Assembly: GCA_902386135.1 (NCBI GenBank)
Contig: CABMIB010000037.1
Location: 1-64,000, forward strand
Direction of reading: 5' to 3'
Source: an uncultured archaeon
GTDB taxonomy: Archaea; Halobacteriota; Methanosarcinia; Methanosarcinales; Methanoperedenaceae
DNA length: 64,000 nucleotides
Below the pieces are notes generated by a model. The model ran no database searches and was not told where the DNA came from. It saw only the letters and a program-made list of their open reading frames with translations. Of the stretch, positions 1,923 to 21,861 are shown piece after piece; positions within the stretch are counted from its first letter, which is position 1, and the number at the start of each line of letters is the position of its first letter. Made by a program: the position numbers and the translations under genes.

Positions 1923-4778
1923 TTATTCGATATATATCGCAGGTCTCATAGGGGATGCGAAACGGCTTTTCCCCTGGGGGTCGTACTCAGGTGCATCCGC
2001 GCTATATATCTCTATACTGCACCCTACAGCCTGGCTTAAGAAATCCCTGGCTTCGTTTAAGGCAGAAGTCTCATCAAACTCCACCTCAAGCAGTGAATTC
2101 ATCAGTTCAGGCTCCATTCCCTGGATATCGGTAATTACCTTTTGAGCGAATTTGGGTATTTCCTTTGCCTGCCCTCTCATTGCAGGGTCGCTCATAAGCG
2201 CGTTCATAAGGGTTTTCATATCAAGGTTGTTCTCTTTTTTAAGTTTTATGGCTTTCCTCAACACCATTTTTTTCCATGATGCGGATGTATACAGGATTAT
2301 CCTTTTTGGTTTTATCTTAATAAGCCTGATGATCTCTTCCATATCCCTGAGCGTATTGCTCGTTATCTCTTCTGCAAGCTCGGCGCTCCTGTCAATAAGA
2401 GCCGGGTCAGCCTTCGGGAATTCTGCCAGGGATATAAAATTCCCGCCCATTTCTTCCTCTATCTCCTCGCATATGTGAGGTGTAAATGGCGCCATTAACC
2501 TGACCCAGGTGCCCAGTATCTGTCTTCGCGCAGCGCCGCCCCCCCTGCGTTCGTACCATTTTATATCGTTCATAAGCAGGTAGAAGGCGTTCTGGACCGC
2601 TCTTCTTGTCTGTATTTTATCAAGGGCCTCGGTGGCCTCCTGTATCCTGTACTGTAATTTGCTCAGCATCCACCTGTCGATCAGTTTTAATCCGCCTGCG
2701 TTCTCTGACCTGATGATATCGTATGCTATTTTATAGAACCTCTCAACCTGTTTCCTTGTGGCATCAACATCCGCTTTCCTCCAGTCGGCATCCTGGACAT
2801 GCTCTGCCGTGCTCAGGATATAGAGGCGTGTGATATCAGCGCCGTACTCTTTTACCGCGGATTTCAAAGTGAGCAGGGGTCCCTTGGATTTGCTCATCTT
2901 TTGCCCTTCAAGCGAAACAAACCCGTTGATGGCTATGGCGCGGGGCCAGTATTTTTCAGGGAATATCGCAACATGGTGGAAGAGGAAGAACAAAAGATGA
3001 TTGGGGATCAAGTCCTTTCCGGACGAGCGCAGGTCAACCGGATACCAGTACTCAAAATCCTTCCTTGTCCTTTTAATGAGGTCGATATCCATCCCGGTTT
3101 TTGACGCAGCGGCTTCAGGCGCGCCCTTACCCAGCAGGTAGTAATCAAAGAAATCTTCTTTTAATTGTTCGGGCTTGATCTTGTCAAGGTATTTAGCAAG
3201 GATATAATAGCTCATGTATATTGTTGAGTCACCGAGCGATTCGATCATCCATTCAGGGTCCCAGGGAAGCCTTGTCCCGAGCCCTTTGCGCCGCGCGCAG
3301 GCTTTATCCTTCAGCCAGTCCACCTTGTTCTCAAAATCCACCCTTAGCTCAGGCGGGATTATCTGCATCATTTCAAGACATTTGTAGACAAGCGCTTTCC
3401 ATGCCGGATCCGAGTAATTCAAAAACCACTGGTTCTCGACCATCTTTATGACACATGTGGCTCCGCACCTGCATATCACGGGCTGTTCGCTGAACTCATA
3501 GAAAACATCCGCCACCCCCTCGGAAATAAGGTCATGCGTCAGCACGTCTTTGATCTTGGAGACGGCCATGCCTGCATATTTACCCGTGGTCTCGGTGAGC
3601 ACGCCGCCGTGGAATTCACGCCTGTACACGAACTTGGTGGCCTCTTCCGCCTTGGGGTCGTTCTGGTCTTTCACCTTCAGTTCGTTGACAGCATCTACTG
3701 CCGGGTATTTCCCGTATTCAGGTACTTTAATTAGAGATATCAGTTGTATTGTGGAAACGTCTTCCGTGATGCCGTATTCCGTTAAGTCCGCACCCTTTAG
3801 ATCGCGAAGAGCAAGGTAATCGTATGGCGCATGTGCCGGTACGCTCATGACGATGCCGCTTCCGTTCGCCGGGCTTACAAATGAGGCGGGCAGTATCGGA
3901 ACGAGAGAATCAGTGACCGGGTTTTTCACTTTTTTACCTATCAGTTCGCCGGCATCGGCATCTTCCAGGAATTCCACCTTCTTATCCGTGAATTTAAGCT
4001 TCTCATACGCCTCTTTGCTGACAACCCAGGTCTCGTCGTTGACTTTTATCCTTACATGATGGTTCTTCGGGTTTACCCACAGGTTCGTGACCCCGAACAC
4101 GGTCTCAGGGCGCAGCGTTGCGCAGGGAAGGATATCGTCGTTGAGTTTGAATTTTATCAGGGTATATTCAATTATGGTGGCATCCTCTCCCCTCAGGATA
4201 TCGTGGTCTTCGACAGGATTCTGGTCGTTCGGGCACCATCTGACGGGATGCGCGCCTTTTACCACCTTGTCTTTTGCATGGAGAAGGTTGAACTGCCATG
4301 TTATGAACTTCTGGTAATGGGGGTCTGTGGTAGTGAATCTTCTGCGCCAGTCGATCGAGAAACCGATGCTTTTCATGGCAGCCTCCGCTTCTTTGCTGAA
4401 ATATTCCACGATCTGCTCAGGTGTCTGGATGGTCTTCAGGATATCAAGAGGTATTCCGTGAAGCTGGTTATACACCCTTATGGTCTCAGGGTCTTTTTTC
4501 TGGATCTGTTCCGCGAGTCCCACTATCGGCGTCCCAGTGGCGTGGAACCCCATCGGGAACAGGACGTTGCAGCCCAGCATCCGTTTGTACCGCGCAATTA
4601 CATCGCCGATGGTGAATGTCCTGGTATGACCTGCATGAAGGTTGCCGTTTAAATAAGGGTAAGGGATTGTTATGAAGAATTTTTCCCTCTCATCAGGCTC
4701 AGGCTGGAATATCCTGGTTTCCTGCCATTTGCGCTGCCACTTTTCCTCTATTTCGTGCGGGTTGTAACGTTCTTTCAT
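1923..4778 (-). CDS. leuS: Leucyl-tRNA synthetase, archaeal type
   Basis: At 951 residues this matches the length of archaeal/eukaryal cytosolic LeuRS. The class I signature HAGH is at about residues 48-51 within a YPYLNGNLHAGHTRTF context, and KMSKS is at about 626-630. A large CP1 editing domain sits between them, with a threonine-rich segment and the ATLRPETVFGVTNLWVNP editing-site motif. An anticodon-binding domain (RWMLSKLQYRIQEATEAL onward) and a C-terminal domain follow. The enzyme charges tRNA-Leu and edits mischarged products in the cytoplasm. It stands alone on the minus strand, and its start lies only about 70 bp from the integrase start, so the mobile element is inserted just upstream of this essential gene. 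Confidence 0.97.
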   Translation of the reverse strand: MKERYNPHEIEEKWQRKWQETRIFQPEPDEREKFFITIPYPYLNGNLHAGHTRTFTIGDVIARYKRMLGCNVLFPMGFHATGTPIVGLAEQIQKKDPETIRVYNQLHGIPLDILKTIQTPEQIVEYFSKEAEAAMKSIGFSIDWRRRFTTTDPHYQKFITWQFNLLHAKDKVVKGAHPVRWCPNDQNPVEDHDILRGEDATIIEYTLIKFKLNDDILPCATLRPETVFGVTNLWVNPKNHHVRIKVNDETWVVSKEAYEKLKFTDKKVEFLEDADAGELIGKKVKNPVTDSLVPILPASFVSPANGSGIVMSVPAHAPYDYLALRDLKGADLTEYGITEDVSTIQLISLIKVPEYGKYPAVDAVNELKVKDQNDPKAEEATKFVYRREFHGGVLTETTGKYAGMAVSKIKDVLTHDLISEGVADVFYEFSEQPVICRCGATCVIKMVENQWFLNYSDPAWKALVYKCLEMMQIIPPELRVDFENKVDWLKDKACARRKGLGTRLPWDPEWMIESLGDSTIYMSYYILAKYLDKIKPEQLKEDFFDYYLLGKGAPEAAASKTGMDIDLIKRTRKDFEYWYPVDLRSSGKDLIPNHLLFFLFHHVAIFPEKYWPRAIAINGFVSLEGQKMSKSKGPLLTLKSAVKEYGADITRLYILSTAEHVQDADWRKADVDATRKQVERFYKIAYDIIRSENAGGLKLIDRWMLSKLQYRIQEATEALDKIQTRRAVQNAFYLLMNDIKWYERRGGGAARRQILGTWVRLMAPFTPHICEEIEEEMGGNFISLAEFPKADPALIDRSAELAEEITSNTLRDMEEIIRLIKIKPKRIILYTSASWKKMVLRKAIKLKKENNLDMKTLMNALMSDPAMRGQAKEIPKFAQKVITDIQGMEPELMNSLLEVEFDETSALNEARDFLSQAVGCSIEIYSADAPEYDPQGKSRFASPMRPAIYIE

Positions 4779-4847
4779 TCACACGTTGCACTACCTGATA
4801 GGAACATAACCGATTGTTTTATTACTAATTACGTTCATATTTAAGTT

Positions 4848-5936
4848 TTGGTGATTGTTATGAGTCGTGCGCCTCCAGCACCTAACAACAAAGTGATAAC
4901 TGATAAGCTTTACGAAGCATGGCTTAAAAGCCTGAGTGAAAAGACAGCATCGAGATACAGATACGGACTTATCGCATATTGTGAGCATACCGGGAAGACT
5001 TGCAGCGCATTGATTAAAGAGGCTCACGAGGATTATATTAACCGTGTGGCTCCCTGGGAGTTAAGGCACATCAAGGCGTTTGAAGGGTTCATACAGAGCA
5101 TCAAAGGCGATCCTGAATTATCCAACTGGACAAAGTTGGGCTTCATCAATGCAGTGAGGCACTTCTATAGGTTTAATAAAATTCCAGTAGAAGGACTAAG
5201 TAAAGCGAATATTCCCGCAATGGCAACAGAGCGATACCTGGATTTACCCGGATTGAAGTTAGATGACATACGGAAGGCTGTATTAAGCTGCGGAGTGGAT
5301 GAGAAATTAACTAAAGCTCTGATACTTACGTTCTTATCATCAGGCCAAGCACAGGCAGAAGTTCAGCATCTCCAAGGAAGACATTTGAAAAATATAGTTA
5401 ATAATGTGGCTGTCGTGAATATGACAAGAGGCAAAACCAACAGGCGATACACTTTCTTTATCGGCTCTGAGGCATTAACCGCTATCCACGAATACAAAGA
5501 CAAGATCGGAGATAATGATTTCGTATTCACTCAAAAGACGAAGGATAAGCCTTTAAACGACACTTACATCGGAACAATCTTTAAGCGGTTGGCTTCAAAG
5601 CTGGGGTGGGAGCGGTCATATTTCCAGCCCCATAGATTCAGGCATTATTTTAAATCTCAATTGAGCGGCTCAATGGATAACACTTTTATTGAGTATTTGT
5701 TGGGTCATAAGCTCCCTGGTGTAGAATCAAATTATTTCTTAGGGAATCAAGAGAAGATGCTGGAGCAATATGTTAAAAATCAGGATAAGCTAACTATATT
5801 CACGGATGCGGAGACTTTACAAAAACAATACGACGAACTCAAACAAGAGAACAGCACGTTAAAGTCAATGTTTACTCCTGATATGATTCAAAAAATGATT
5901 GACGAAAGAGTATCGCAATTACTGAAAAATAAATAA
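4848..5936 (+). CDS. Tyrosine recombinase (integrase) of the mobile element
   Basis: A 362-residue site-specific recombinase. The C-terminal catalytic half shows the box II pattern HRFRHYF, then LLGHK and a nucleophile candidate in ESNYF. A likely beta-hairpin lysine lies in TRGKTNRRYTF. At the place of the usual first catalytic Arg (TGLRxxE in most families) it has SGQAQAEV, so that residue may have shifted or is not recognisable by eye. The N-terminal part (about 20-130) resembles a SAM-like core-binding domain, and the last 35 residues form a predicted coiled coil. A second in-frame Met at codon 5 is an alternative start. It defines the left end of the integrated element. No tRNA gene is visible next to it. 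Confidence 0.85.
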   Translation: MVIVMSRAPPAPNNKVITDKLYEAWLKSLSEKTASRYRYGLIAYCEHTGKTCSALIKEAHEDYINRVAPWELRHIKAFEGFIQSIKGDPELSNWTKLGFINAVRHFYRFNKIPVEGLSKANIPAMATERYLDLPGLKLDDIRKAVLSCGVDEKLTKALILTFLSSGQAQAEVQHLQGRHLKNIVNNVAVVNMTRGKTNRRYTFFIGSEALTAIHEYKDKIGDNDFVFTQKTKDKPLNDTYIGTIFKRLASKLGWERSYFQPHRFRHYFKSQLSGSMDNTFIEYLLGHKLPGVESNYFLGNQEKMLEQYVKNQDKLTIFTDAETLQKQYDELKQENSTLKSMFTPDMIQKMIDERVSQLLKNK

Positions 5937-5974
5937 TCTTTCTCTTCTTGCTTTATCTCTTTTTGTTCAAAGCT

Positions 5975-6019
5975 ATGATTGAGGCGAGGGTAAAGGAATT
6001 AATGAAAAAAGGTCAATAG
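5975..6019 (+). pseudogene. Remnant resembling an integrase C-terminus
   Basis: Fifteen codons (MIEARVKELMKKGQ, then stop) closely resemble the last codons of the intact integrase upstream (MIDERVSQLLKNK, then stop). The nucleotide match is also visible: both begin ATGATTGA and share GTA, AATTA and TGAAAAA blocks in register. The reading frame stays open upstream but loses similarity. This could be the tail of an older integrase, left by a previous insertion or gene replacement, or one half of an attachment site. The stop overlaps the end of the convergent gene by a few bases. Confidence 0.45.
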
Positions 6020-6588
6020 AATGAGTTTAAACGCTGCAGTCTATACTGAATATGGTCAGATGTTAAAGCAAAAGCAATATCTTCTTTTAACCCTGGCACC
6101 ATATTGGACATTAACTGAGTAGCGAGCCGTCTAACAGATTCAATCTTAGCGGGTTCTACTCCAAAGTTTTGGACGGTCGGCTTAATATCCCTTTTTTCAA
6201 GGTCCTTCTTCATTTTTTCAAGTTCGTCTTTGCTTCCTTTTTCCATGCACAAACTAATGAAATGCTCATATGCCTGCGGTACACGGGATTTTTCATCACC
6301 ACACATCACATCTATGAGCTTTAAAACATCTTGCGGATACTCATAGTTATTTACTATGGTAAAAAATATCTCATTATCTGTAATCCCGATACTCTTAACA
6401 ACCTTTGAATCGATTTTAATATAGGGTTTAATAGTCCCATCCGATAACAAGCGTCTTATATTATAAAGAATCGGTTGATGCTGCTTATTTAATTTTTTGA
6501 GTTCTGCGAGATTTGTTTCCTTATTTGTTTCCTCATTTTTCTTTATACAATTAAGGATATTTTGTTTATGGGTTTCTTTATCTTCCAT
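6013..6588 (-). CDS. Hypothetical element protein, possible winged-helix regulator
   Basis: A 191-residue protein not recognised as a named family. Residues about 5-55 (helix, helix, LYNIRRLLSDGTIKPY) look like a winged helix-turn-helix ending in a wing. The middle is a charged helical region (SKDELEKMKKDLEKRD) and the C-terminus is helical. It is transcribed divergently from the AbrB-like gene across a 111-bp gap that carries a direct repeat, as expected for a regulator controlling a lysogeny-type or copy-number switch; that role is inference. It is convergent with the integrase gene. Confidence 0.6.
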   Translation of the reverse strand: MEDKETHKQNILNCIKKNEETNKETNLAELKKLNKQHQPILYNIRRLLSDGTIKPYIKIDSKVVKSIGITDNEIFFTIVNNYEYPQDVLKLIDVMCGDEKSRVPQAYEHFISLCMEKGSKDELEKMKKDLEKRDIKPTVQNFGVEPAKIESVRRLATQLMSNMVPGLKEDIAFALTSDHIQYRLQRLNSFY

Positions 6589-6603
6589 GAATTATACCTC
6601 ATT

Positions 6604-6672
6604 TTTTACTTTAGTACAAAATATTGCTTAAAAAAGCTATATAGTTTTACTTTGTATTAAAACTATTGTTTA
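6604..6672. promoter_or_regulatory. Divergent promoter with a direct repeat
   Basis: Two similar blocks about 27 bp long begin TTTTACTTT at 6604 and 6645, 41 bp apart. After a short variable stretch both continue AAAA(C)TATTG(C/T)TTA. An 8-bp palindrome CTATATAG lies between them at about 6637-6644. The region separates the minus-strand regulator (start 6588) from the plus-strand AbrB-like gene (start 6700). It probably holds both promoters and operator copies; which protein binds is not known. Confidence 0.5.
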
Positions 6673-6699
6673 GGTTACTAACCGAAGAAGGTTACGACT

Positions 6700-6891
6700 A
6701 TGATAAGAAAAATACAAACAAACAGGGATTTGTCTTTTGTGTTTATCCCGAAAGCGTTTATGGAGCTTTTAGGGTTACAGAAAGGGCAGAAAGTAGATGT
6801 CAGGGTAGTAGATGAGAAAATCGTAATTGCGCCAGTCCTTGAAAACCGCCAAGTTACCAGAACTGACGCAAGCCAGCCAACACCCAGCTAA
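6700..6891 (+). CDS. AbrB/SpoVT-type DNA-binding protein
   Basis: A 63-residue protein with the swapped-hairpin AbrB fold: RKIQTNRDLSFVFIPKAFMELLGLQKGQ, then VDVRVVDEKIVIAP. The usual pattern is a conserved strand, a PK(A/E) turn, a short helix with LGL.KGQ.V and a final strand. Such proteins are dimeric transcription regulators or antitoxins. No toxin gene follows directly; the next gene is a 40-residue protein of unknown role. It is probably an element-encoded repressor acting at the divergent promoter upstream. Confidence 0.8.
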   Translation: MIRKIQTNRDLSFVFIPKAFMELLGLQKGQKVDVRVVDEKIVIAPVLENRQVTRTDASQPTPS

Positions 6892-6906
6892 GGGAGTGAT
6901 GCCAGC

Positions 6907-7029
6907 ATGTCAGATATAAGCGCATTTCTAAGTAAAAACCCTTCCATCCCTCAAATTCTTGAATTTGTAGAATCGGAGGCGCAGCGCATAGCATCAGACC
7001 GCAAAAGGGCAGCGGAGGGTTCGTCATGA
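6907..7029 (+). CDS. Small element protein, 40 residues
   Basis: A short open frame beginning MSDISAFLSKNPSIPQ and ending AAEGSS. A GGGAGTGAT ribosome binding site lies 7-8 nt before the ATG, and the stop overlaps the next start as ATGA. These two signs support translation even though the product is tiny. It is helical and charged in the second half (about residues 18-36). No family is recognised. It is part of the tightly packed chain leading to the primase gene. Confidence 0.55.
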   Translation: MSDISAFLSKNPSIPQILEFVESEAQRIASDRKRAAEGSS

Positions 7030-7358
7030 CCGATACCAAAGATAAATCGGTTGTCGTCCTGACGGAAGGAAAATACGGTCTTATTCTGCTTGATGCCCGT
7101 AACTGGTGCATAGCCGAGTTAAACGATAGTAGGGCTTCAATAGACATCAATACGAAGGACTTTAACCCCAACTCTTACACTTACCATGCCAACATCAGAC
7201 AGGCCATAATTGAGATGGCCGGCAGGATGACTAAAGATAAGATAAGAAAGTCCTGCGAGAGTAAACCACTGGAACTTCGAGAACTTATCGAAATCATCAA
7301 GGGAAACGACCAGTGGATGAGAAAAGCGATTATGGGAAGGGCTGGGGTGGAAAAATGA
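7026..7358 (+). CDS. Hypothetical element protein
   Basis: A 110-residue protein of unknown family. The N-terminal half is strand-rich (KSVVVLTEGKYGLILLDARNWCIAEL) and the rest is helical (ANIRQAIIEMAGRMTKDKIRK, ELRELIEIIKGNDQWMRKAI). Start and stop overlap the neighbouring genes as ATGA on both sides, so it is translationally coupled within the replication operon. A role close to DNA replication is suggested by position only. Confidence 0.6.
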   Translation: MTDTKDKSVVVLTEGKYGLILLDARNWCIAELNDSRASIDINTKDFNPNSYTYHANIRQAIIEMAGRMTKDKIRKSCESKPLELRELIEIIKGNDQWMRKAIMGRAGVEK

Positions 7359-7573
7359 CAAAAAATGAATGGAATACAGCCCCCACATCTGAAGGTCTTG
7401 AGACCTCAACAGGAAAGGGGGCTATTAGTTCTAAGATTGTTTCTCATGGTTTAAATAGGTTTTGCCATAACCATGAAAAACCCAATAGCTTACAATTCTG
7501 TTGTTCTGGGATAAGTCCATGCTGCTCCTGCGATGCTCCTCGGCAACCATTGTGCAGTTTGGTGGGGCGGTGA
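7355..7573 (+). CDS. Small cysteine-rich element protein
   Basis: A 72-residue product starting at the ATG that overlaps the previous stop (ATGA). The C-terminal part is rich in Cys and His: a CHNH motif, a CC pair, CCSC and a final Cys. This suggests a small metal-binding module, but the spacing does not match a zinc finger that I recognise. The start further upstream in the same frame would overlap the previous gene by 46 nt and is less likely. Confidence 0.5.
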   Translation: MTKNEWNTAPTSEGLETSTGKGAISSKIVSHGLNRFCHNHEKPNSLQFCCSGISPCCSCDAPRQPLCSLVGR

Positions 7574-7576
7574 GTT

Positions 7577-7780
7577 ATGGTAGTTTTAATTTGCGCCAAA
7601 TGCGGTAAAAAGTGCCGTGGACATTTAAATAAGAGTGGCAATTGGGTAACTGCTTGGAAAGTCCTGGCAGGGCATATCATAGCTTCCCGTGACCATATAC
7701 GCAAGAAATGGGCTAAAGCATTCCTGCTATCATCAAATGTAGGAACAGGATTATGGGAAGATAGGGGGCGGTTGAGATGA
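7577..7780 (+). CDS. Small zinc-finger-like element protein
   Basis: A 67-residue basic protein. The start CAKCGKKCRGH gives a CxxC pair followed by Cys and His, and further His residues (GHIIASRDH) could complete a zinc site. The basic C-terminus (HIRKKWAKAF, WEDRGRLR) fits nucleic acid binding. Its stop overlaps the start of the primase gene as ATGA, so it is likely co-translated with the replication protein and may assist it; that is inference. Confidence 0.55.
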   Translation: MVVLICAKCGKKCRGHLNKSGNWVTAWKVLAGHIIASRDHIRKKWAKAFLLSSNVGTGLWEDRGRLR

Positions 7781-10239
7781 GTACCGAGGACATACTCACG
7801 GCAGCCAAAGAATACACAGCTAAAGGCTGGGTGGTTCATCCTCTATCAAGTCCGAAGGATAACGGCAACAGTCCAGGAAAAAGACCGTTATTATCAGCAT
7901 GGCAGGAATTAACGCATACACCCGAAGATATAGGCGCACACATTAAAAAAGGCGGCAATATCGGGTTAGTGTGTGGTTGTGTTAGCGGAGTTATTGTTTT
8001 AGACTTCGATAGCATGTTATTTTATAAAACTATATTCCCTGACGGCAGTAATACGCTTGAAAGCCAGAGAATTGAAGGACGAAGGCACGTATATCTAAAA
8101 TATCACCCTTCGCTTACATCGAAATCAGATAAGCATTTAAAAATCGAATTGCAGAGTGATAAAAGGAATCTTGTATTACCCCCGTCCATTCATGCGGAAG
8201 GTCAAACATACGACTGGATCAATCCTGAAACACCAATAAGAGAACTTACGGAAGATGAAATAACGAGGATAAATGGATTATTCCAATTATCCGCTAGTCT
8301 CCAAGCAAAAATAAAGGACTGTGGGCGATGTTTCGAGAGGATTTTAGAGCTTAAATCTGACATGACTACTGGGGGAGATAGAAGCGCATTATTAGGACTT
8401 TTCACGGAGCTTAAACTTCATGAGGCCACCGATGATGAACTGTTCTTAATGGCTAAGTTGATTTTTAAGGAGAAATTCGATAAGAAAGAGACTGAAACCA
8501 GTTTAAGATATATCGACATTGGTAGACCTCACAAATGTGAATCGTTACGGCAGGACTTCGGCAAATACATTAAATTTGACGGATTATGTGATAACTGCAA
8601 CCGATTTAACAGGCAAAATAAAGGAAAAAAGAAAAGTAAAGAATCATTAAAAATAGAATTACCTCTGATACCACAGGAACAAATAGAACAAAATCCGATA
8701 ACAATACATGAATTGTTAGATGTCTATAAAAAGTATCTTTACATTGAAGAAAACGAAAGCATAACCATACCACTGGCTGAGACCATAAGCAATTTTGCAC
8801 CTATAGAACCTGATATAATGGGAATTATAGGGGCGAGTGGTTCCAGCAAAACCGAAGTTATTAGGGCGTTGGGAGAATTGGAGAACCAGTATATCTATCC
8901 TGTAAGCTCCATAACCGGGCATACTCTTGTAAGTGGTTTTGAAGATAATGTAGATTTAGCACCGTCTTTGAGGGGTAGATTATTAACAATCAAAGACTTT
9001 ACCACATTATTAGCAAAAAAGAAAGACGAAGTGAGCGAAATATTTGCCGATCTTCGAGAACTCACAGATGGACATATAGGAAAGGACTTTGGCAGCGGAG
9101 TTAAGAAGCACTATACAGGTATTCATACTTCTATACTTTTTGGCTGTACTAATGCCATTGAAAAATATAATTCGATGTTTTCATTATTGGGGCAGAGGAT
9201 ATTATTTTTCAGACCTCGTAGCGACAAAAAGAAAGCAATGTACCAAGCTATGAAGAACGCGGGTAAAGAATCCGCATTTAGGGATGAGTTGCACAAAAAA
9301 ACAATGCAGTTTATATATCATATCTTGAATACTAAAAAAGATAGATTGACCAACCTAAGCCACATACCCGAAGTATATGGCGAAATGATAGGAGAATTGG
9401 TTTATTTCTTGGCGATTGTGAGGACGCATATAGACAGGGATTTTAAAGGCGAAATGGCAACATTACCAGAACCAGAATATCCCACACGATTAGCTAAAAC
9501 AATGTGTAAGTTGGTAGATGCACACGCGGTTATACATGACCGTGAACCGATAGTGGATGATCTGAGGATAGCGTATAGGTTAGTCTTGGATAATATCCCC
9601 ACGGATCGGTTAAGGATATTAAACACGCTACTTGATGGGAACGAGAGGACTACATCAGAAGTTCAAGAAGCTGCAAGGGTATCTAACGCTTTCGCGAGGA
9701 GAATATTAGAGGACTTGAAAGCTTTAGAAGTGATTGAATATTTTAGTGGGGGAAAAGGTAAACCAGATATTTGGCAATTTACTGATGAAAAATATAGAGA
9801 AATTTTAACCCAAATTCAGGATTTTAGTAAACATGAAAATAAGAATAGTTCGCCTGATGCTGAACAACCCCAGGGTGCTATTCGCTTACCGGGGGATACT
9901 GAAACTATTAAAAAGGTACTCCAGAAATTAAAAAATAAAAATAAAGGAGAGAAAGAGGAGAGTCCCATAAAAGAGGAGAGTCACCACCTAAGCGAATACC
10001 ACCCCGGACTCACAGAGTCGGCAAGTAATGGTTTAAAAACAGACCACTTAGAAAATCAGGAGATCATAGATTATATAAAATCTGTAAAAGAATGGAATGT
10101 CAAACCTGATTCAGAGAGCAATCGTAACTACAGGGTCACAAACGGTAGTCCTGAGATAGCCAGAAAGTTTAACATACCTACAGAAAAAGCCTATAAAATC
10201 TTTAAGGACTATTGCAAGGCGCGGGGCTGGGGATCATGA
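7777..10239 (+). CDS. Primase-polymerase / P-loop ATPase replication protein
   Basis: An 820-residue replication initiator or primase-helicase. The N-terminal domain has the bifunctional primase-polymerase (Prim-Pol) signature: GWVVHPL, metal-binding DFD at about residues 76-78, and GRRHVYLKY near 101-109. A cysteine cluster (HKCESLR to CDNCNRF, about 250-275) may bind zinc or an iron-sulfur cluster. A P-loop ATPase follows with Walker A GASGSSKT (about 352-359), RGRLLTIKDF as a Walker B candidate and SILFGCTN as a sensor. A winged helix (about 620-680) and a charged, low-complexity tail with a last helical segment complete it. This architecture is typical of plasmids and viruses of archaea. 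The iteron array lies just downstream. Confidence 0.85.
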   Translation: MSTEDILTAAKEYTAKGWVVHPLSSPKDNGNSPGKRPLLSAWQELTHTPEDIGAHIKKGGNIGLVCGCVSGVIVLDFDSMLFYKTIFPDGSNTLESQRIEGRRHVYLKYHPSLTSKSDKHLKIELQSDKRNLVLPPSIHAEGQTYDWINPETPIRELTEDEITRINGLFQLSASLQAKIKDCGRCFERILELKSDMTTGGDRSALLGLFTELKLHEATDDELFLMAKLIFKEKFDKKETETSLRYIDIGRPHKCESLRQDFGKYIKFDGLCDNCNRFNRQNKGKKKSKESLKIELPLIPQEQIEQNPITIHELLDVYKKYLYIEENESITIPLAETISNFAPIEPDIMGIIGASGSSKTEVIRALGELENQYIYPVSSITGHTLVSGFEDNVDLAPSLRGRLLTIKDFTTLLAKKKDEVSEIFADLRELTDGHIGKDFGSGVKKHYTGIHTSILFGCTNAIEKYNSMFSLLGQRILFFRPRSDKKKAMYQAMKNAGKESAFRDELHKKTMQFIYHILNTKKDRLTNLSHIPEVYGEMIGELVYFLAIVRTHIDRDFKGEMATLPEPEYPTRLAKTMCKLVDAHAVIHDREPIVDDLRIAYRLVLDNIPTDRLRILNTLLDGNERTTSEVQEAARVSNAFARRILEDLKALEVIEYFSGGKGKPDIWQFTDEKYREILTQIQDFSKHENKNSSPDAEQPQGAIRLPGDTETIKKVLQKLKNKNKGEKEESPIKEESHHLSEYHPGLTESASNGLKTDHLENQEIIDYIKSVKEWNVKPDSESNRNYRVTNGSPEIARKFNIPTEKAYKIFKDYCKARGWGS

Positions 10240-10394
10240 CCGCATGTCCTAATAAATGCCTGGACTGCAAGTCCTCTATCCGCAAAGTTACCGGGCAATT
10301 CTGCAAGCAGTGGGGGCTATTGTGTATAGAAGTAAGTGAGTGGTGCGGTGTGGGAGGTATGAGATGGGTGAAAATGTCGGCTTCTCACAAATAA
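10236..10394 (+). CDS. Small cysteine-rich protein, possible zinc ribbon
   Basis: A 52-residue product starting at an ATG overlapping the primase stop (ATGA). Motif CPNKCLDC followed by Cys residues at QFCKQ, LLCIEV and WCGVG gives up to six cysteines, typical of a tiny zinc-binding protein. No family is recognised. An in-frame start 24 nt upstream exists, but the overlapping ATG fits the pattern of the operon better. Confidence 0.5.
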   Translation: MTACPNKCLDCKSSIRKVTGQFCKQWGLLCIEVSEWCGVGGMRWVKMSASHK

Positions 10395-10449
10395 CTATGA
10401 GTAATAATATGTCATAATTCGAGGGTAAAATGTGGACTGAAATAATACC

Positions 10450-10541
10450 GTTTTACCTCTGTTATAGATTCGTTTTACCTGCGTTTTAAAAGTGTTTTAG
10501 CCCTGTTTTAGTGTGTTTTAACGTGTTTTAAAAGTGTTTTA
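10450..10541 (+). repeat. Helically phased GTTTTA iteron array
   Basis: Eight exact copies of GTTTTA start at 10450, 10472, 10483, 10494, 10505, 10515, 10525 and 10536, and a variant GTTATA at 10461 fills the only gap. Spacing is 10 or 11 bp throughout, one helical turn, so all sites face the same side of the DNA. On the other strand these are phased TAAAAC tracts, which would also bend the DNA. The array sits between the end of the replication operon and the next regulator gene. A replication origin or a cooperative regulator binding region is the likely function. Confidence 0.75.
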
Positions 10542-10618
10542 ATGCACTGTTTCAGAGTTCATGAGGATATTCAAGACCTTCATAAGATATAAGTACTTTG
10601 ACTATATATTATAGGCAT

Positions 10619-11026
10619 ATGTTAGGAAATACTAATAATAAATCGAAAATTGAAACGAAAGTGAGCTATGAAGAGTTTGAACAGTTCTATCTGGAACATC
10701 CTGGGGAATCGCCACAGACATTATCCGAGGTGTTCAATGTATCACCAAGATGTATCTATTACAAGCTGAGGAGATTTAACCGACTCCATAATGATAAATT
10801 CGTAGATGCATCTTCCCTACTACTTCAAGCATTCAGGGACGGAAGAAAAGAAGGTTACGATGAAGGAGTTTTAATTGGTCTCGGCATAGGGGATTTATTA
10901 GGGGAATTTTTGAAATCAAATGGTATAGGCATTACTGATTTTATCGCTAAATTCTCAGAGTATGTGCATGGAACTTATGCAAAAAAAGAACAGGTGATCG
11001 CAAATGACAGAACAAGCACAGCCTGA
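10619..11026 (+). CDS. Helix-turn-helix protein of the element
   Basis: A 135-residue protein. Residues about 30-52 (QTLSEVFNVSPRCIYYKLRR) form a clear helix-turn-helix. After it comes a helical stretch with a glycine-rich segment (EGYDEGVLIGLGIGDLLGEFL). The ATG at 10619 follows an AT-rich TATATATTATA tract and is preferred over a TTG 21 nt earlier. It is the first gene after the iteron array, so it may bind the array or control replication; this is inference. Its end overlaps the next gene by 23 nt. Confidence 0.65.
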   Translation: MLGNTNNKSKIETKVSYEEFEQFYLEHPGESPQTLSEVFNVSPRCIYYKLRRFNRLHNDKFVDASSLLLQAFRDGRKEGYDEGVLIGLGIGDLLGEFLKSNGIGITDFIAKFSEYVHGTYAKKEQVIANDRTSTA

Positions 11027-11729
11027 AAATCTCCCAGCACCGCAAGAACAGCCCGCACCATCTAATCCTAACATTGGTGATTTTTTCAAGAATTTCTCCC
11101 TAAAAGATATTTTGGACTACATCCAGGAGAACCCAGAAGCCATAGACGAGTACCTCCCGGACATTAAGAGAGACCTTGCAGGTCTTGGAACAATAGAGCG
11201 CGGTATTGCAGATATGCTATTGCGGTCAAAAGCACCCAAATTATGGGAGAGGATACACAATGATAACCCTGTAAGCAGCCCCAAAAATGACAACGAAGAT
11301 TCACGGACGAAAGATAACGATAATGGGAACAGTCCTGAAGTAACATATTCCCCGGAACAACTCCGAGATGATGTGATCGAATTGTTTGAATCGCCAGAAG
11401 AATACAGCGAAAATGAGATAGCAGGTATTCTTGATGAGGAATATTTTGAGAAATACGGGAAGCATGTTCACCAATCACAAGTATCCAGGATCATCAGAAA
11501 ATATGAACAAAATGGAAATGGGGATAGAGATGGGGAAGATTACCCGGACAACCACGACCACGATAAACCGAAACCCAAGAAAATAGTTGATGCGATAGCC
11601 TCCGAAGTAGTTAAGAAACTACAAAGCCAGGGGATAACTCAACCTGCTCCTACTCTTGCTCATGCACCACAGCAACCAAAAACAGGACGTAACGGATTAA
11701 TAACGCGATTTGTCAGATGGTTTATTTAA
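11004..11729 (+). CDS. HTH domain protein with disordered linkers
   Basis: A 241-residue protein. The first 25 residues are Pro/Gln/Ala rich. A helical region follows (about 27-85, FFKNFSLKDILDYIQENP). A charged, probably disordered stretch (NDNEDSRTKDNDNGNS) precedes a DNA-binding domain at about 112-170, which contains SENEIAGILDEEYFEKYGK and VHQSQVSRIIRKYEQNG, a winged-helix or ParB-like HTH pattern. The C-terminus is again low complexity. It could be a partition or regulatory protein of the element, but no ATPase partner (ParA) is present. Confidence 0.6.
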   Translation: MTEQAQPENLPAPQEQPAPSNPNIGDFFKNFSLKDILDYIQENPEAIDEYLPDIKRDLAGLGTIERGIADMLLRSKAPKLWERIHNDNPVSSPKNDNEDSRTKDNDNGNSPEVTYSPEQLRDDVIELFESPEEYSENEIAGILDEEYFEKYGKHVHQSQVSRIIRKYEQNGNGDRDGEDYPDNHDHDKPKPKKIVDAIASEVVKKLQSQGITQPAPTLAHAPQQPKTGRNGLITRFVRWFI

Positions 11730-11748
11730 TTTTAAGGATGTGATCAAT

Positions 11749-12057
11749 ATGAGAACGATGAGAAAACCAAGACATAGAGGTACGAAATCAGAACCAAAAC
11801 CAGAACCAGAAAAAGATAAAGACAAGTTACTTACTATACTGTTAAAGACCAAAGTTTCAGATGTAGTAAATCTGATGGATAACTTCAAGATTAGAGAGTT
11901 CGCTAAACAATATCCAGAAAAGACATTCAGTGACTTGGGTGAAGAGATTTTAACAGCATGGGTAGAAGTAGTTAAAAAACATCCTGAAGAATGGGGAGTC
12001 ACAAAAGAGCAAATCGAGAAACTTAAGAAGGATGAGATAAAAACAACTAACATTTGA
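11749..12057 (+). CDS. Hypothetical basic element protein
   Basis: A 102-residue protein starting MRTMRKPRHRGTKSE. The first 30 residues are Arg/Lys/Pro rich and look disordered or nucleic-acid binding; the rest is helical (TKVSDVVNLMDNFKIREFAKQYPE, LGEEILTAWVEVVKKHPEEWG). The ATG at 11749 is preceded by GGATGTGATC, one mismatch from the perfect anti-16S sequence, and this decides the start over a TTG 39 nt earlier. No family is recognised. Confidence 0.6.
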   Translation: MRTMRKPRHRGTKSEPKPEPEKDKDKLLTILLKTKVSDVVNLMDNFKIREFAKQYPEKTFSDLGEEILTAWVEVVKKHPEEWGVTKEQIEKLKKDEIKTTNI

Positions 12058-12253
12058 ACATGGTCTAATCTTGTTTGAGTCGTGTTCAAATCTTGATAAT
12101 TCATTCTTCCGATACCTTTTTTCACTATTAAATGGGGGATATTCCAGTAGGATTTTTCTAAACCAGTGTACGAACATGTACAATCTGACCATTGGTAGTA
12201 TTCCAATAGTAATCTATAAGTAGGAATAAACTCATACTTTTAGCCGTGATAAC

Positions 12254-12451
12254 ATGCCACGAAGAACTATGGAAATGGTAAAAGTTAGCATTTCGATGCC
12301 TGTATGGGTACAAAACGAGATTGATAGCTTATCTGAAGAAATGAACACATCCCGAAGCGATGTAATTTCGGAAATCTTGGAGTACGTAATTGAAAATGAG
12401 GATGTACTTAACGATATTTTCCCGATGGAAGATGAAGAACCAGGGGAGTAG
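12254..12451 (+). CDS. Ribbon-helix-helix (CopG-like) regulator
   Basis: A 65-residue protein with the ribbon-helix-helix pattern: strand EMVKVSISMPVWVQNEID, helix SLSEEMNTSRSDVISEILEYVIE. The MPxWxxxxIDxLSEEMxxSRSDVI signature is typical of CopG/NikR-like DNA-binding domains. An acidic tail follows. It opens the module that contains the beta-rich proteins and probably controls it, or acts as an antitoxin. The 196 bp upstream (12058-12253) hold no gene and probably contain its promoter. Confidence 0.8.
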   Translation: MPRRTMEMVKVSISMPVWVQNEIDSLSEEMNTSRSDVISEILEYVIENEDVLNDIFPMEDEEPGE

Positions 12452-12465
12452 CAAGACGGGATAAT

Positions 12466-12756
12466 ATGAAGCCACATAGTCATACATATAATTTTGAAGA
12501 ATTTGCCGATATGATAGCTTCCGATCCAGAATTAGGGGAATTATTTTATGATCCTGAACCTGAATCTCTTTATGATCCTGAGCCTCTGGTCTTAGGAGAA
12601 ATACCACAATCTTGGTTTATTGCCATGAGACGGGGAATAGCAGAGCGTTCAGATGTTCGTTACCCAGGTCTTTGGGCATGGCGTATCTGGAAAGCCTTAA
12701 GCCCAGAGGAGCGGGAAGAAATCAAACTTATATCCTTACATGGTGGGCGATTCTAA
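12466..12756 (+). CDS. Hypothetical acidic element protein
   Basis: A 96-residue protein with a repeated acidic-proline motif (FYDPEPESLYDPEP, about residues 26-40) and a Trp/Arg-rich helical half (RYPGLWAWRIWKALSPEEREEIKL). No family is recognised. It starts 14 nt after the CopG-like gene, and its stop TAA overlaps the next start (TAATG), so it is part of an operon with the two beta-rich proteins downstream. Confidence 0.6.
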   Translation: MKPHSHTYNFEEFADMIASDPELGELFYDPEPESLYDPEPLVLGEIPQSWFIAMRRGIAERSDVRYPGLWAWRIWKALSPEEREEIKLISLHGGRF

Positions 12757-13307
12757 TGGGATTTTGGGATATATTTTTCGGAAGCTCACCAAAGGCACAG
12801 CAGAGCCAGTCACAGCCTTGCAGACCTTCCCAGGCAGCCCCTTTGATTCAAGATACTAACCGTATCCTTACACAGCAGGAAGCCCTTTTAAGAAGGCTTA
12901 ATGAAGGTCTTGTAAACAGTCCTCAGCATGGGGATATCACAAGCGAATATACCACACGAAACAATTACAGCGCGTTTAGAATAGGTAAGTCATGGTTCTT
13001 CAATCAGAATATCACATTTGCCGGTACTGTTATGGATATCCAGCTTACCAATATCAATGCAATGGTTTATAATAAAATCAGCTTGAGCTTTGACGATGCG
13101 ACCGCGAAGGATTTTGACATCCGAGGATACCCGGAAGCATCCAGTTCAGCATATGAGGATTTAGATAATAAAACCGCCGATACAAATCAATTCGTTTTGG
13201 TTGCTACGGATTATAAAATGCCTCCGAGTAGCGTTTTATTAATTCACTTTGCGAATTTTACAGTAGGTAAGAAATGCTCAATTCGAATACAGGGTGATGA
13301 GATATGA
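12756..13307 (+). CDS. Beta-rich element protein, possible virion or surface component
   Basis: A 183-residue product starting at the ATG that overlaps the previous stop. Residues 1-60 are helical and Gln-rich (MGFWDIFFGSS, then LTQQEALLRRLNEGLV), resembling a coiled stem. From about 75 to the end alternating hydrophobic strands suggest a beta sandwich (YSAFRIGKSWFFNQNITFAG, MDIQLTNINAMVYNKISLSF). No signal peptide is seen. This layout is common in phage tail or decoration proteins, but I recognise no specific family. Stop and next start overlap as ATGA. Confidence 0.5.
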   Translation: MGFWDIFFGSSPKAQQSQSQPCRPSQAAPLIQDTNRILTQQEALLRRLNEGLVNSPQHGDITSEYTTRNNYSAFRIGKSWFFNQNITFAGTVMDIQLTNINAMVYNKISLSFDDATAKDFDIRGYPEASSSAYEDLDNKTADTNQFVLVATDYKMPPSSVLLIHFANFTVGKKCSIRIQGDEI

Positions 13308-14101
13308 AGATTACAGAAGTATTGAATGGCAGACAGGTATCACTCGACCAAGGGCATCAGCCCCAATTTTTAGTGGGGCTGGATAGCCAGAAGAACGCGA
13401 ACCCAGGTAAAGGTGATACATATTATGCCTATGATACAGGCAGGCAGCTTACCTGCTTCGTGAATGGTGTGTGGTCTGTAGTATCATCCCCTTCAACTAT
13501 TCGAACCGGGAATCATGAGGGAACAGTAACGAACTTCTTTAAAACCGCTGTAGTAGGCGCACCAGATGTTACCACATTAACTTCGAATCATGCGTTAAGC
13601 ATGGATCCAAATAGCGCGGGGGATTCAGTTGAATATTACACCGATGTTTTCTATACCCCGGATAATTTTACATTCTTAGCTTCATTCTTTATTTATGCCG
13701 TGAACTTGGGGTCAGCCGCGCCCAATGGTCATGAAGTGAGGATAGGTTTGCACGATAGGTTAGGGATAGATGGGAACGCCAGCGCCCAGGCTATGTTTAT
13801 GGTGAACTCTAATGATGGTCAATGGAAGTGCGTAACGTCGGATGGCGGGGGCGGGCATACCCAGGTAACGAACATCTCAGCGCCATCATTCCCAGGGAGT
13901 AGCTTCTCAGTGTACACTTCACCAGGTAATGGCTTTACTCTTGTTATATATACGATGAACGGGGTAATTGTGGCGGTACATACGAACATCTTATTACCTG
14001 TGGTCAATCTGGTGTCTGACAGCTATATAACTGCATTATCAGCGCCCACGGTCTTTGCTACGCTTCAAACCTCATTCATTGGATTAGATATTCTAACCTG
14101 A
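13304..14101 (+). CDS. Beta-rich element protein, possible receptor-binding or tail-tip protein
   Basis: A 265-residue protein of almost continuous predicted beta strands, rich in Gly, Asn, Ser and Thr. The first 65 residues contain GDTYYAYDTGRQLTCFVNGVW, a motif style seen in phage fibre and tail-tip head domains. The rest looks like a jelly-roll or lectin-like sandwich (EVRIGLHDRLGIDGNASAQAM, GFTLVIYTMNGVIVAVHTNI). No signal peptide or anchor is visible. It is translationally coupled to the previous beta-rich gene. A virion or cell-surface role is inference. Confidence 0.5.
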   Translation: MKITEVLNGRQVSLDQGHQPQFLVGLDSQKNANPGKGDTYYAYDTGRQLTCFVNGVWSVVSSPSTIRTGNHEGTVTNFFKTAVVGAPDVTTLTSNHALSMDPNSAGDSVEYYTDVFYTPDNFTFLASFFIYAVNLGSAAPNGHEVRIGLHDRLGIDGNASAQAMFMVNSNDGQWKCVTSDGGGGHTQVTNISAPSFPGSSFSVYTSPGNGFTLVIYTMNGVIVAVHTNILLPVVNLVSDSYITALSAPTVFATLQTSFIGLDILT

Positions 14102-14343
14102 TGTTTTATCTCATCCTTTAACCGTATAATTTCCAGTGGAACAACTGCCATATCCCATTTATTGGCATTACTGAGGCATTTAGTACGGCATAGAACAGCA
14201 CTACAGCATTACCTTACCGCATCCAATAGGCAAAGCTATATCTCCAAAAACTTATTGTGGGGGCAATTAAAATGTTAAAAATTTGAAGTAAAAAAAGAAG
14301 GTCAGAAAGTGATTTCGTACACTGAAATGGTAGGAGAATATAT

Positions 14344-14577
14344 ATGAACAGAATAATGATATTTGCTGGGTTCTTTATAATCCTTATAGGATTTGCGAAT
14401 TTTCAAAATTTTCAAAGCTTCGGCGGCATCGAAGGTCAGGTAATTGGCAGCACCGTTTTCTGGAATCTTGTGGTTTGGCTCGGATTTGGAATTATTGGAA
14501 TCGGAATTGGAAAGAGCGATAAAAATCATGGGGGTCATAACTCTGCGTTATCTCATGGAACAGAAGATTTACATTAA
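14344..14577 (+). CDS. Small membrane protein of the element
   Basis: A 77-residue protein with two hydrophobic segments, IMIFAGFFIILIGFANF (about 4-20) and FWNLVVWLGFGIIGIGIG (about 40-57), and a His/Lys-rich tail. GGTAGGAGA just before the ATG serves as ribosome binding site. Two-helix hydrophobic proteins of this size form the coat of spindle-shaped archaeal viruses, but they are also common as holin-like or hypothetical proteins, and there is no sequence match I can name. Confidence 0.55.
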   Translation: MNRIMIFAGFFIILIGFANFQNFQSFGGIEGQVIGSTVFWNLVVWLGFGIIGIGIGKSDKNHGGHNSALSHGTEDLH

Positions 14578-14710
14578 CCATTACTCAGTCGTTGCCAGAA
14601 CAGGCTTAAACATGCTCAGACATGGCTTAGAATGACTGAGGAGGGTATAAGGTCATGTTGTGGGGATGATCTCAGGGAATAGGTAGATTTACTTAAACCT
14701 GTGGTACAAC

Positions 14711-14782
14711 ATGGCTAAATGGATAGGGCTATCCGTGATAAGCGGGATTGTGGGGATTGTAGTCGGCAGGGTGATTTTATGA
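14711..14782 (+). CDS. 23-residue single-helix membrane peptide
   Basis: A minimal frame MAKWIGLSVISGIVGIVVGRVIL followed by TGA. It is almost entirely one transmembrane helix with an N-terminal Lys. The stop overlaps the start of the coiled-coil gene as ATGA, which supports real translation and coupling. Without that overlap it would not be called. Function unknown. Confidence 0.4.
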   Translation: MAKWIGLSVISGIVGIVVGRVIL

Positions 14783-15066
14783 CAAAAAAACCGAAAAGAA
14801 GAGTCGATAGCATTTCGACAGAGGAAGAACTCGAAAAATATGTAAGCGATCAAATAGATGAAATGAGTATTGATGAAGAACTAAAAGGAGATATGAAAAA
14901 ATCATATTCTCGATTGATAGATAAGTTAATAAATTCGTTTGACTTGAAAAAAGAAATAGTCCTTTCACAGTTTGATTCACAATTAGAAAGAAGTGATAAC
15001 TTGAAAAGACTTTATGCAATTGAGGCACGGCTTGATGCGATTGAGGCATGGATGAAGGCGCATTAA
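14779..15066 (+). CDS. Coiled-coil element protein
   Basis: A 95-residue charged protein, MTKKPKRRVDSISTEEELEKY to the C-terminal LYAIEARLDAIEAWMKAH, which is a regular heptad pattern. The ATG at 14779 overlaps the stop of the tiny membrane peptide and is preferred over an in-frame ATG 60 nt upstream. It has no recognised family. It may pair with the membrane peptide. Confidence 0.55.
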   Translation: MTKKPKRRVDSISTEEELEKYVSDQIDEMSIDEELKGDMKKSYSRLIDKLINSFDLKKEIVLSQFDSQLERSDNLKRLYAIEARLDAIEAWMKAH

Positions 15067-15336
15067 AGGCGTTCTGAGCATAACCCCAGGGGAATAGGTA
15101 CAAACACCTTACCTTTTTATCAATCGCTGAAATAAAGCCTATTTGCGTAAGGCAGGATAGCCTTAGAATGAAGGGGATAGGGTTAAAGGCCATGAGTTCA
15201 TGAGGTCATGTCCTGGGAGATGTAGGACTTTAACGTAGCCGTAACGGAAAACGAAAGTAGTATCCATCAAAGACCCATAAGAAAGCCTCTCATATCGCAT
15301 TTATGGGGTTTGACTTCATAAAAATATAGATAAAAG

Positions 15337-15666
15337 TTAAGCCGCAGCAAGTCTTTTTTCAAGATCAGCAATCTTAAGTTCTAAAGCCGTTATCTTTTCG
15401 ATTACCGGGATACGCTTTTCCAGGGAATCAAACTTTACGTTCATTTCTGTTCTCAGGCCGTCTATTTCTTTTCCGACGCTGGTTATTTCTGTCTTTGTCT
15501 CATTTCTCAGGCTGCCTATTTCTATTTTCATTTCGTTTCTGAGGCTGTCTATCCGTTCATTCGTTGAATCTATCCGGGCATTGATTGCCTTAAGTTCGCC
15601 TTTTATCTCATTGAGTTCGGGCATCAACACTTGTTTTAACCAGGACGGTACTTTTTCCACAGGCAT
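15337..15666 (-). CDS. Coiled-coil protein
   Basis: A 109-residue protein that is almost entirely a long coiled coil, with repeated units of the type IDSLRNEMKIEIGSLRNETK. A short N-terminal segment (VPSWLKQVLMPELNEIKGEL) precedes it. Such proteins occur in many archaeal genomes with no assigned role. It is transcribed against the element genes, and it is unclear whether it belongs to the element or to the chromosome, so it marks the uncertain right border. Confidence 0.6.
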   Translation of the reverse strand: MPVEKVPSWLKQVLMPELNEIKGELKAINARIDSTNERIDSLRNEMKIEIGSLRNETKTEITSVGKEIDGLRTEMNVKFDSLEKRIPVIEKITALELKIADLEKRLAAA

Positions 15667-16010
15667 AATCTATACTTGATGTATGTTCTATTTAACTTTA
15701 AGCTGCATGGAGTTAGAGGTAAAAGGCTCTATTTCTATCCGCGATCCTGTCAGGAACAACTTTATAAATATAAGAGATTAATATAAAAAAGATTTTTACT
15801 TTCTATAAATACCCCGATTGATTTTTGACAATGAATATCTATAGTTCAGAAATTAGTAATCATACAAAATATATTACTCCCTGATAGTAAAAAGATTTAA
15901 CGGTTTGGGATTCGCTTGTGAGTATGATGGGGAATATTATACTTAGAACCTATCTGAAAATTGTATTGCCTATCCGATTTCTTCTTTTTATAAAAATTCG
16001 CACTTTTATT
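15667..16010. other. AT-rich gap near the right border of the element
   Basis: About 340 bp without a supportable gene. The sequence is AT-rich, with runs such as TTTATAAATATAAGAG and a GATTTTTACTTT tract. I looked for a copy of the sequence left of the integrase (4779-4850) that would be an attachment repeat. I found only an 8-bp CCTGATAG match (about 4796 and 15882) and a 9-bp inverted match (TTACTAATT), both within chance. The right end of the element is therefore not located. Confidence 0.4.
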
Positions 16011-16351
16011 TTATTTTTCCATATCGCTCAGAACTTCTTCTATGAGAGGCTTCAGATTCGGTATGTCCTCTTCCAGCACAAGCCACACCTTCTCAAGGCT
16101 AACCCTGAAATAAAGATGAGTGACCTTATCTCTCATTCCTGCTATGTCTTTGGGATTTGAGGATATTTTTTACGGATATCATCTGGTATGTGTTTAACAG
16201 CTTCTCCTATAATCTCGATGCACCGCAAAACGGCAAGATATGTCCTTTTATCAATTATAAACTCCTCATAGCTCATATCACTTACAAAATCTTCTGCAAG
16301 TTCCATATGCTCGATGATATCTTTAATATACAGCGACACGTCCCGCTTCAT
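16011..16351 (-). pseudogene. HEPN (DUF86-like) toxin, frameshifted
   Basis: The open frame gives 69 residues of a HEPN-domain protein (MKRDVSLYIKDIIEHMELAED to DDIRKKYPQIPKT) and then stops. The missing half continues in another frame: KDIAGMRDKVTHLYF, EKVWLVLEEDIPNLKPLIEEVL, stop at 16011. The junction at about 16150 lacks the tryptophan codon usual in PQIPWKDIAGMRD, consistent with a small deletion of 4 bases or 1 base. The RX4H RNase motif (RDKVTH) lies in the lost part, so the truncated product would be inactive. The start overlaps the MNT gene stop as ATGA. A sequencing error is possible. Confidence 0.75.
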
Positions 16352-16641
16352 ACATATACTACTTCCTTCAGAATCCTCTCTTTTAATTCATACCTGATAT
16401 CTTCCTTAGGCACAACATCCACCTTTGTCTCTATGAGATCGGCTAAGAAATTTTCCAGATTCACTAATTTCAAAAGACTTATTGGCTTTTCAAACTCAAC
16501 CAGAACATCCACATCGCTCTTTTTTTTCTGTTCGCCTCTCACATAAGAGCCGAAGATTCCAATTTCTCTTACACCATATTTCTTTCTTATGGCTGGCTTT
16601 TGCTTTTTCAATATCTCTTTTATCTCTTCAAGCGTTCTCAT
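16348..16641 (-). CDS. MNT-type nucleotidyltransferase antitoxin
   Basis: A 97-residue minimal nucleotidyltransferase with GSYVRGEQKKKSDVDVLVEF at about residues 30-50, the GSxxxGxxxxxSDxDhhV active-site signature. In HEPN/MNT systems this enzyme modifies and silences the HEPN RNase. It is encoded first and overlaps the HEPN gene by 4 nt. With the HEPN partner frameshifted, the pair is probably no longer a working toxin system. Confidence 0.85.
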   Translation of the reverse strand: MRTLEEIKEILKKQKPAIRKKYGVREIGIFGSYVRGEQKKKSDVDVLVEFEKPISLLKLVNLENFLADLIETKVDVVPKEDIRYELKERILKEVVYV

Positions 16642-21784: not shown

Positions 21785-21861
21785 CCGGGTCCAAGTCCCG
21801 GGGGCGCATTTACCTGGCTAAGCGCCGGGTAAGATTAGGAAAATAAAATGAGGTGAATATA

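Follow-up and report, generated by a model that had tools for sequence, protein, structure and literature searches.

The question raised by this locus is what purpose is served by a row of short DNA words set one helical turn apart. The window, by which is meant the whole stretch of 64,000 nucleotides that was analysed, carries this row in a non-coding gap of an approximately 11-kb integrated element of Candidatus Methanoperedens, and a preliminary description had taken the even spacing on one face of the helix to suggest cooperative binding or an intrinsically bent origin. Little is known of the way in which the integrated elements of methanotrophic archaea, or their small viruses, are replicated. 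The features of the element are listed in table 1.

Table 1. Positions in the window of the array, the integrated element and its neighbouring genes.
Feature	Position	Strand	Remarks
Hexamer array, nine sites (eight GTTTTA and one GTTATA), one per helical turn	10450..10541	+	
Tenth site, GTTTCA, degenerate	10549..10554	+	13 bp past the ninth site
Integrated element, approximate extent	4814..15867		Inverted 17-nt arms at 4814-4830 and 15851-15867; att sites putative
Tyrosine integrase	4848..5936	+	Pfam PF00589; left element end, beside leuS; same site in G021:C7
Prim-Pol (primase-polymerase) gene of the element, 820 aa	7777..10239	+	Pfam PF09250, E=2.3e-21
HTH protein gene, 135 aa, proposed array binder	10619..11026	+	Pfam HTH_23 at E=0.16 only
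Second ORF of HTH operon, 241 aa	11004..11729	+	Weak HTH_32-like Pfam match, E=0.025, below cut-off
Third ORF of HTH operon, 115 aa	11710..12057	+	No Pfam match
Array-to-HTH gap	10555..10618	+	AT-rich stretches by eye, e.g. 10587-10614; candidate promoter or unwinding region

Exact copies of GTTTTA start at positions 10450, 10472, 10483, 10494, 10505, 10515, 10525 and 10536 and the GTTATA variant at 10461, with steps, in order, of 11, 11, 11, 11, 11, 10, 10 and 11 bp, followed by 13 bp to the degenerate tenth site. The eight exact copies and one variant at 10-11 bp spacing of the preliminary description were confirmed by this listing and by shuffles. Its 'perfect' helical phase stood as regards the single helix face, but not as regards strict regularity: with a mean step of 10.75 bp the row keeps to one face with some drift, which comes to about 2 bp (some 70 degrees) over the whole row. 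When hexamers were searched for exact copies chained at steps of 10-11 bp, the array gave the longest chain (7 copies); a chain longer than 2 was given by 0 of 2000 dinucleotide shuffles of positions 10401-10600, and the next best chain in the rest of the 64 kb was 3, even with steps of 9-12 bp allowed. For the non-coding gap (10395-10618), period 11 was matched at that period by 0 of 2000 shuffles, and the score of the array was reached at any period from 7 to 25 by 0 to 3 of 2000, according to scoring width. The array is real and non-random. No ORF of at least 60 aa was found across it, and when its own 3.24-Mb assembly was searched with a four-unit pattern, as many as 3 mismatches being tolerated, it was the sole match, so that this search gave no second GTTTTA array.

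The right end of the element was placed near 15.85 kb by a 59-bp match to the right flank of the element in L098 and by the left arm recurring there in inverted form, which gives a size of about 11 kb and puts the array near the middle. The genes follow in the order integrase, AbrB/MazE-like protein, Prim-Pol, array, HTH gene and more small ORFs, and the gene beside the integrase is, judged from its protein, presumably that of leucyl-tRNA synthetase (leuS). Upstream of the array lie a possible small ORF, which runs to 10394, and the Prim-Pol ORF; the latter stops 211 bp short of the array and shows, at residues 610-655, a weak TrmB/HTH-like match. Downstream, 65 bp separate the end of the degenerate site from the ATG of the HTH gene, the array as a whole occupying the region 65-169 bp upstream of this start, and AT-rich DNA was seen by eye on both sides. 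An integrase of 77% identity was found at the same leuS-side site in another genome (L098), in an element (3014-10535) with different cargo and without the array. The att-like arms at both ends of the window and L098 elements are inverted, not direct. Two small ORFs (16142-16641) adjoin the right end of the window element and resemble what we take to be a HepT/MntA-type toxin-antitoxin pair; farther on, two perfect 21-bp tandem units (22451-22493) lie within a Gly/Asn/Ser-rich ORF (21853-22983).

The HTH protein of the window gave no significant match to a Pfam or PHROG family and no known initiator domain. Its AlphaFold single-sequence model had helices at residues 17-57 and a mean pLDDT of 63.8, and no match at E<=0.001 was obtained with this model in Foldseek. 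Among 237 genomes of the class one relative was found besides its own genome, on contig G005:C95 (45-49% identity; locus L047), and a sample of 392 genomes of the phylum added none; viral contigs (also queried with the relative) and plasmids gave no match. A candidate third member of the family, on G000:C88 (E=0.006), was dropped as unconvincing.

The relative also has an array upstream of its gene, made of about six CATTRATTTAR-type units that follow each other every 11 bp, with a single 10-bp step. The distance from its end to the HTH start codon is about 75 bp, versus 65 bp in the window, and its period of 11 was matched by 0 of 2000 shuffles. The order of array, then HTH gene, is common to both loci. 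By tblastn, L047 and the window have in common the integrase (56%) and the HTH protein (45%); the window proteins at 6013, 7026, 7577, 11004 and 11710 had no match in L047 better than E=0.3, and Prim-Pol had none on contig G005:C95. Since the integrase alone was clearly matched among the seven other window proteins compared, array and HTH gene form the shared core. In this comparison the position and spacing of the array are kept and its word is changed, and the array appears to belong with the HTH gene and not with the Prim-Pol gene. The L047 element (9276-14059) is very small (about 5 kb) and contains an integrase, a regulator, a 217-aa protein without known family, the array, the HTH gene and two small ORFs, with no recognised replication enzyme among the ORFs scanned.

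Neither Prim-Pol nor the integrase nor the word itself proved to be a marker of such arrays. Stretches around 20 Prim-Pol matches were screened with a word detector, which was positive in L029, L030 and, inside the Prim-Pol ORF, L041; period analysis together with gene context added arrays of family X (described below) in L028, L032, L033 and L034. Because no word-detector match was obtained in the closest Prim-Pol relatives (L022-L024), the link of the array to Prim-Pol was dropped. The detector ignores words made up of two kinds of letter only, and the array of L107, missed by it, was found by reading and confirmed by period analysis. The background was 8 arrays in 603 kb, which is not a genome-wide rate because these sequences had been fetched for their relation to these genes. 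The integrase was rejected as a marker, with no array in L098, L099 or L100, and so was the word: 16 viral contigs (L077-L092) carry at least four GTTTTA at exact 11-bp steps in mixed gene contexts. One of these contigs has ten ACTATA units (L079), and in another (L080) the repeats adjoin a 420-aa ORF that by eye resembles a plasmid initiator. Phased short repeats are also present within Prim-Pol frames, namely in L041 at 11084-11140 (GTAACA) and in L040 at 8747-8812 (TTGTGGT).

Family X comprises proteins of 214-241 aa with a winged HTH (Pfam), encoded in elements of Methanoperedens, of two other genera of the order and of one more distant genome of the phylum; viral contigs and plasmids gave no match. 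Comparison of its profile with the window HTH protein returned a probability of 2.4% and a generic HTH match only, so that homology is unsupported and family X serves as an analogy for the window array. On the minus strand the unit of the window array reads TAAAACACNNN and resembles the family-X words TACAACACGAA (L029) and GTAAAACAAAA (L101), a likeness that was given no weight because the words are short and A-rich. Arrays of 11 bp were found inside the gene in all 13 of the 13 family-X genes with a readable linker (L028, L029, L030, L032, L033, L034 and L101-L107); in L107 the contig end cuts the gene before the HTH part, and L074, a fragment without linker, was left uncounted. The array lies about 300 nt inside the gene, away from its promoter, and the linker that joins the N-terminal HTH to the C-terminal part is a row of 11-bp units, in most cases five. 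Period 11 ranked top, alone or tied, save in L032 and L033, where it was second to 22. The two halves of the L101 gene are in different frames, the change of frame falling within the array, and a second 11-bp array (TATTCA, six copies, 5111-5171) lies between this gene and an integrase gene.

When the codons were resampled for the same protein, the repeat beat all 2000 resamplings in 5 of the 10 genes tested and was equalled in the others by 3 (L028), 5 (L106), 38 (L034), 67 (L032) and 70 (L033) of 2000. In the run of Asn codons beside the array AAT was used at 44 of 44 positions versus 56 of 93 elsewhere, counts that are not independent as the genes are related; the run is missing from L104. 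Of the family-X genes, six are in Prim-Pol loci, where five lie about 1.1 kb upstream of the primase and the sixth about 7 kb away, and some family-X genes adjoin an integrase gene. The match of the family to a Cox-like PHROG was very weak (E=0.09), and its AlphaFold model (pLDDT 38) was too poor for use.

Among the aligned family-X genes the mean pairwise difference was about 0.46 both in the codons of the recognition helix and in the array, and elsewhere mostly 0.05-0.25, save in the opening 45 nt and in a stretch near nt 251-275. The helix IKTVNVYCWLG and one word are common to L032, L033 and L034, the helix IREVWVYCRRG and nearly one word to L028 and L106, and L030, L029 and L105 each have a helix and a word of their own. 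L030 and L032 differ by 61% in the helix, 37% in the array and 10% outside, and L028 and L106 by 11%, 9% and 17%, respectively. Given the rest of the gene, helix and word co-varied with a partial Mantel r of 0.74 (p=0.0012) in the 8 alignable genes, a set in which L032 and L033 are nearly identical and L105 has an internal stop, and for which the helix and array columns were picked after the alignment had been seen; L101, L102, L103, L104 and L107 were excluded as too diverged. In these alignments, recognition helix and repeat word thus change together.

The proposal of an intrinsically bent origin held in part. The wedge model predicts a strong bend in the window array, 127 degrees over 90 bp, which ranks at the 99.94th percentile within the first 20 kb, and high values were obtained for L102 and L030, but the predicted bend is ordinary in L029 (46th percentile) and L034 (58th percentile), so bend is not the conserved feature. 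By this model phased A/T curvature does not seem to be kept in relatives, and bending can help without being the feature shared. GC skew, put forward as a check on an origin, showed no turn at the array and tracked gene direction from 5 to 15 kb, which is a point against the origin reading. Further points against it are that the window pair has a single relative, that no known initiator domain was found in the HTH protein, that no replication enzyme was recognised among the scanned L047 ORFs, and that GTTTTA rows also occur in viral contigs of mixed context.

In the explanation that we prefer, the HTH protein, whose gene begins 65 bp downstream, would bind along the array at about ten places, once per turn. 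The HTH molecules would dock head to tail on one helix face to build a nucleoprotein filament, and the filament would most likely mark and open the replication origin of the element for Prim-Pol and the host machinery; this would be an iteron origin of short period, served by an initiator of the element itself and following a lambda-O-like logic. Head-to-tail binding is suggested by the single site per turn, the strict short words with free bases between them, the private HTH gene and the scarcity of anything else shared. Cooperative binding on one face, as first supposed, gains inferential support from the recurrence of one-turn spacing beside the HTH relative and in family X, and the spacing, whose conservation in related elements had been put forward as a check, is kept, with other words, in L047 and in the unrelated family X. 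A role as origin is favoured because Prim-Pol lies next door and because the family-X array lies in an HTH gene beside an AT run, as in lambda O. We infer physical binding, cooperativity, origin activity and a role of the flanking AT-rich DNA, and we give an even chance to the reading, drawn from the sequences, that the array is a binding row of the HTH protein most likely serving as the iteron-type origin of the element.

The main rival to the origin reading is autoregulation, in which the HTH protein would polymerise along the row, one molecule per turn, and repress or activate its own operon with no role in an origin. An operator would sit just where the array is found, shortly before the HTH gene in the window and comparably in L047. 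Regulators of archaeal viruses, AvtR for example, are described as occupying their own promoter region over about 100 nt (PMC5569661), and BldC as sitting one per turn (PMC11963761). The family-X array, however, lies far inside the HTH gene and not at its promoter, and ten sites are many for an operator; we regard autoregulation as unlikely, though deserving of serious consideration. Plasmid centromeres typically hold short repeats set in arrays, and with two small ORFs following the HTH gene the row might be a partition site, coated by the HTH protein to segregate the excised element. No ParA-, ParM- or TubZ-like gene was found, however, in ten element ORFs (Pfam; ORFs at 12612-15066 outside the scan) or among the window ORFs scanned with PHROGs, the HTH operon holds no motor ATPase or GTPase gene of the ParABS type (ten ORFs, Pfam), and partition is improbable.

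The alpha protein of phage P4 binds its iterons via a C-terminal winged helix, and Prim-Pol, which ends shortly before the array and has the weak HTH-like match noted above, might bind the array itself in the same manner. A winged helix for origin recognition has been proposed in another archaeal primase (PMC5862659). Since the L047 element keeps an array on a contig with no Prim-Pol match, and the closest Prim-Pol relatives have none by the word detector, Prim-Pol, which had been named as a possible binder, is disfavoured in that role, and we hold it to be quite improbable. A filament site for a recombination-directionality protein (Xis/Cox/RdfS-like) would accord with the DNA filaments described for such wHTH proteins (PMC11963761), with the Cox-like match of family X and with the integrase gene beside some of its members, but the window array is about 5 kb from either element end and L098, with its 77% integrase at the same site, is without array, and this reading is very unlikely. 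Least probable of all is that the row has no cognate protein and is a bent-DNA element or a functionless tandem repeat. The exact four-unit GTTTTA rows in viral contigs of mixed gene contexts and the strong predicted bend in the window would fit such a row, but conservation is confined to the short words, with differing bases between them, the place beside HTH genes recurs, the period is kept while words change, and in family X helix and word co-vary and the bend is not conserved.

The origin reading may be set beside systems already known. Phage lambda has four iterons of about 18 bp. In ori-lambda directly repeated initiator sites lie by an AT-rich tract in the middle of the initiator gene O, and these iterons are described as intrinsically bent (PMC7466680). 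Like lambda O, family X has its repeats inside the gene, between the DNA-binding and C-terminal parts, where they encode the linker; family X is a different protein family, and the window array is non-coding and outside the HTH gene. Lambda iterons are longer than the 11-bp unit found here and little changed between related phages, and no homology of the present proteins to known replication families was found with Pfam or PHROGs. Plasmid iteron origins (RepE, RepA, TrfA type) likewise have short direct repeats by a putative initiator gene with AT-rich DNA near, and the window array is a compact set of several direct repeats of one short word. Classical iteron units are 17-22 bp long with a period of about two turns, whereas the period here is one turn and neither a Rep_3-type domain (Pfam) nor another known Rep-family initiator (Pfam, PHROGs) was found adjacent; the contrast in period that had been drawn at the outset was borne out by the period of 11 in the window, in L047 and in the 13 family-X loci.

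In geminiviruses, iterons of 5-6 nt are described as differing between close relatives, with the contacting parts of Rep changing too (PMC12548392). The fast change of a repeat together with its protein is alike, but the viruses and proteins are unrelated, the iterons few and replication is by rolling circle. In the wHTH filaments of BldC and RdfS, the molecules are described as following one another head to tail at intervals of one DNA turn (PMC11963761), but they act in the control of transcription and excision and use no strict repeated word (RdfS none). Borg repeats within ORFs are described as perfect, with a unit length divisible by three (PMC9879509). Borgs are similar in that they, too, are Methanoperedens elements with tandem repeats both inside genes and between them; the repeats found here are not exact copies, keep a unit of 11 bp within genes as well, and are not of the Borg type. 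The array is iteron-like, with a one-turn period and, in family X, co-varying specificity; no description of 11-bp one-turn arrays in archaeal elements was recognised in the literature searched, mostly at abstract level.

Plausible, if somewhat short of an even chance, is the wider proposal that HTH protein and one-site-per-turn array, the latter in family X inside the HTH gene, form, in mobile elements of methanotrophic and related archaea, an undescribed specificity module in which helix and word diversify together, which would set replicon identity and incompatibility and would have evolved at least twice, in the window family and in family X. If true, this would be a natural helix-to-word code, with most of the rest of the module staying conserved. 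The window would provide a candidate initiator-plus-origin pair for a methanotrophic-archaeal element and possibly a handle for vectors in Methanoperedens or Methanosarcina, and family X, in which helix and site change together, would be a ready data set for DNA recognition.
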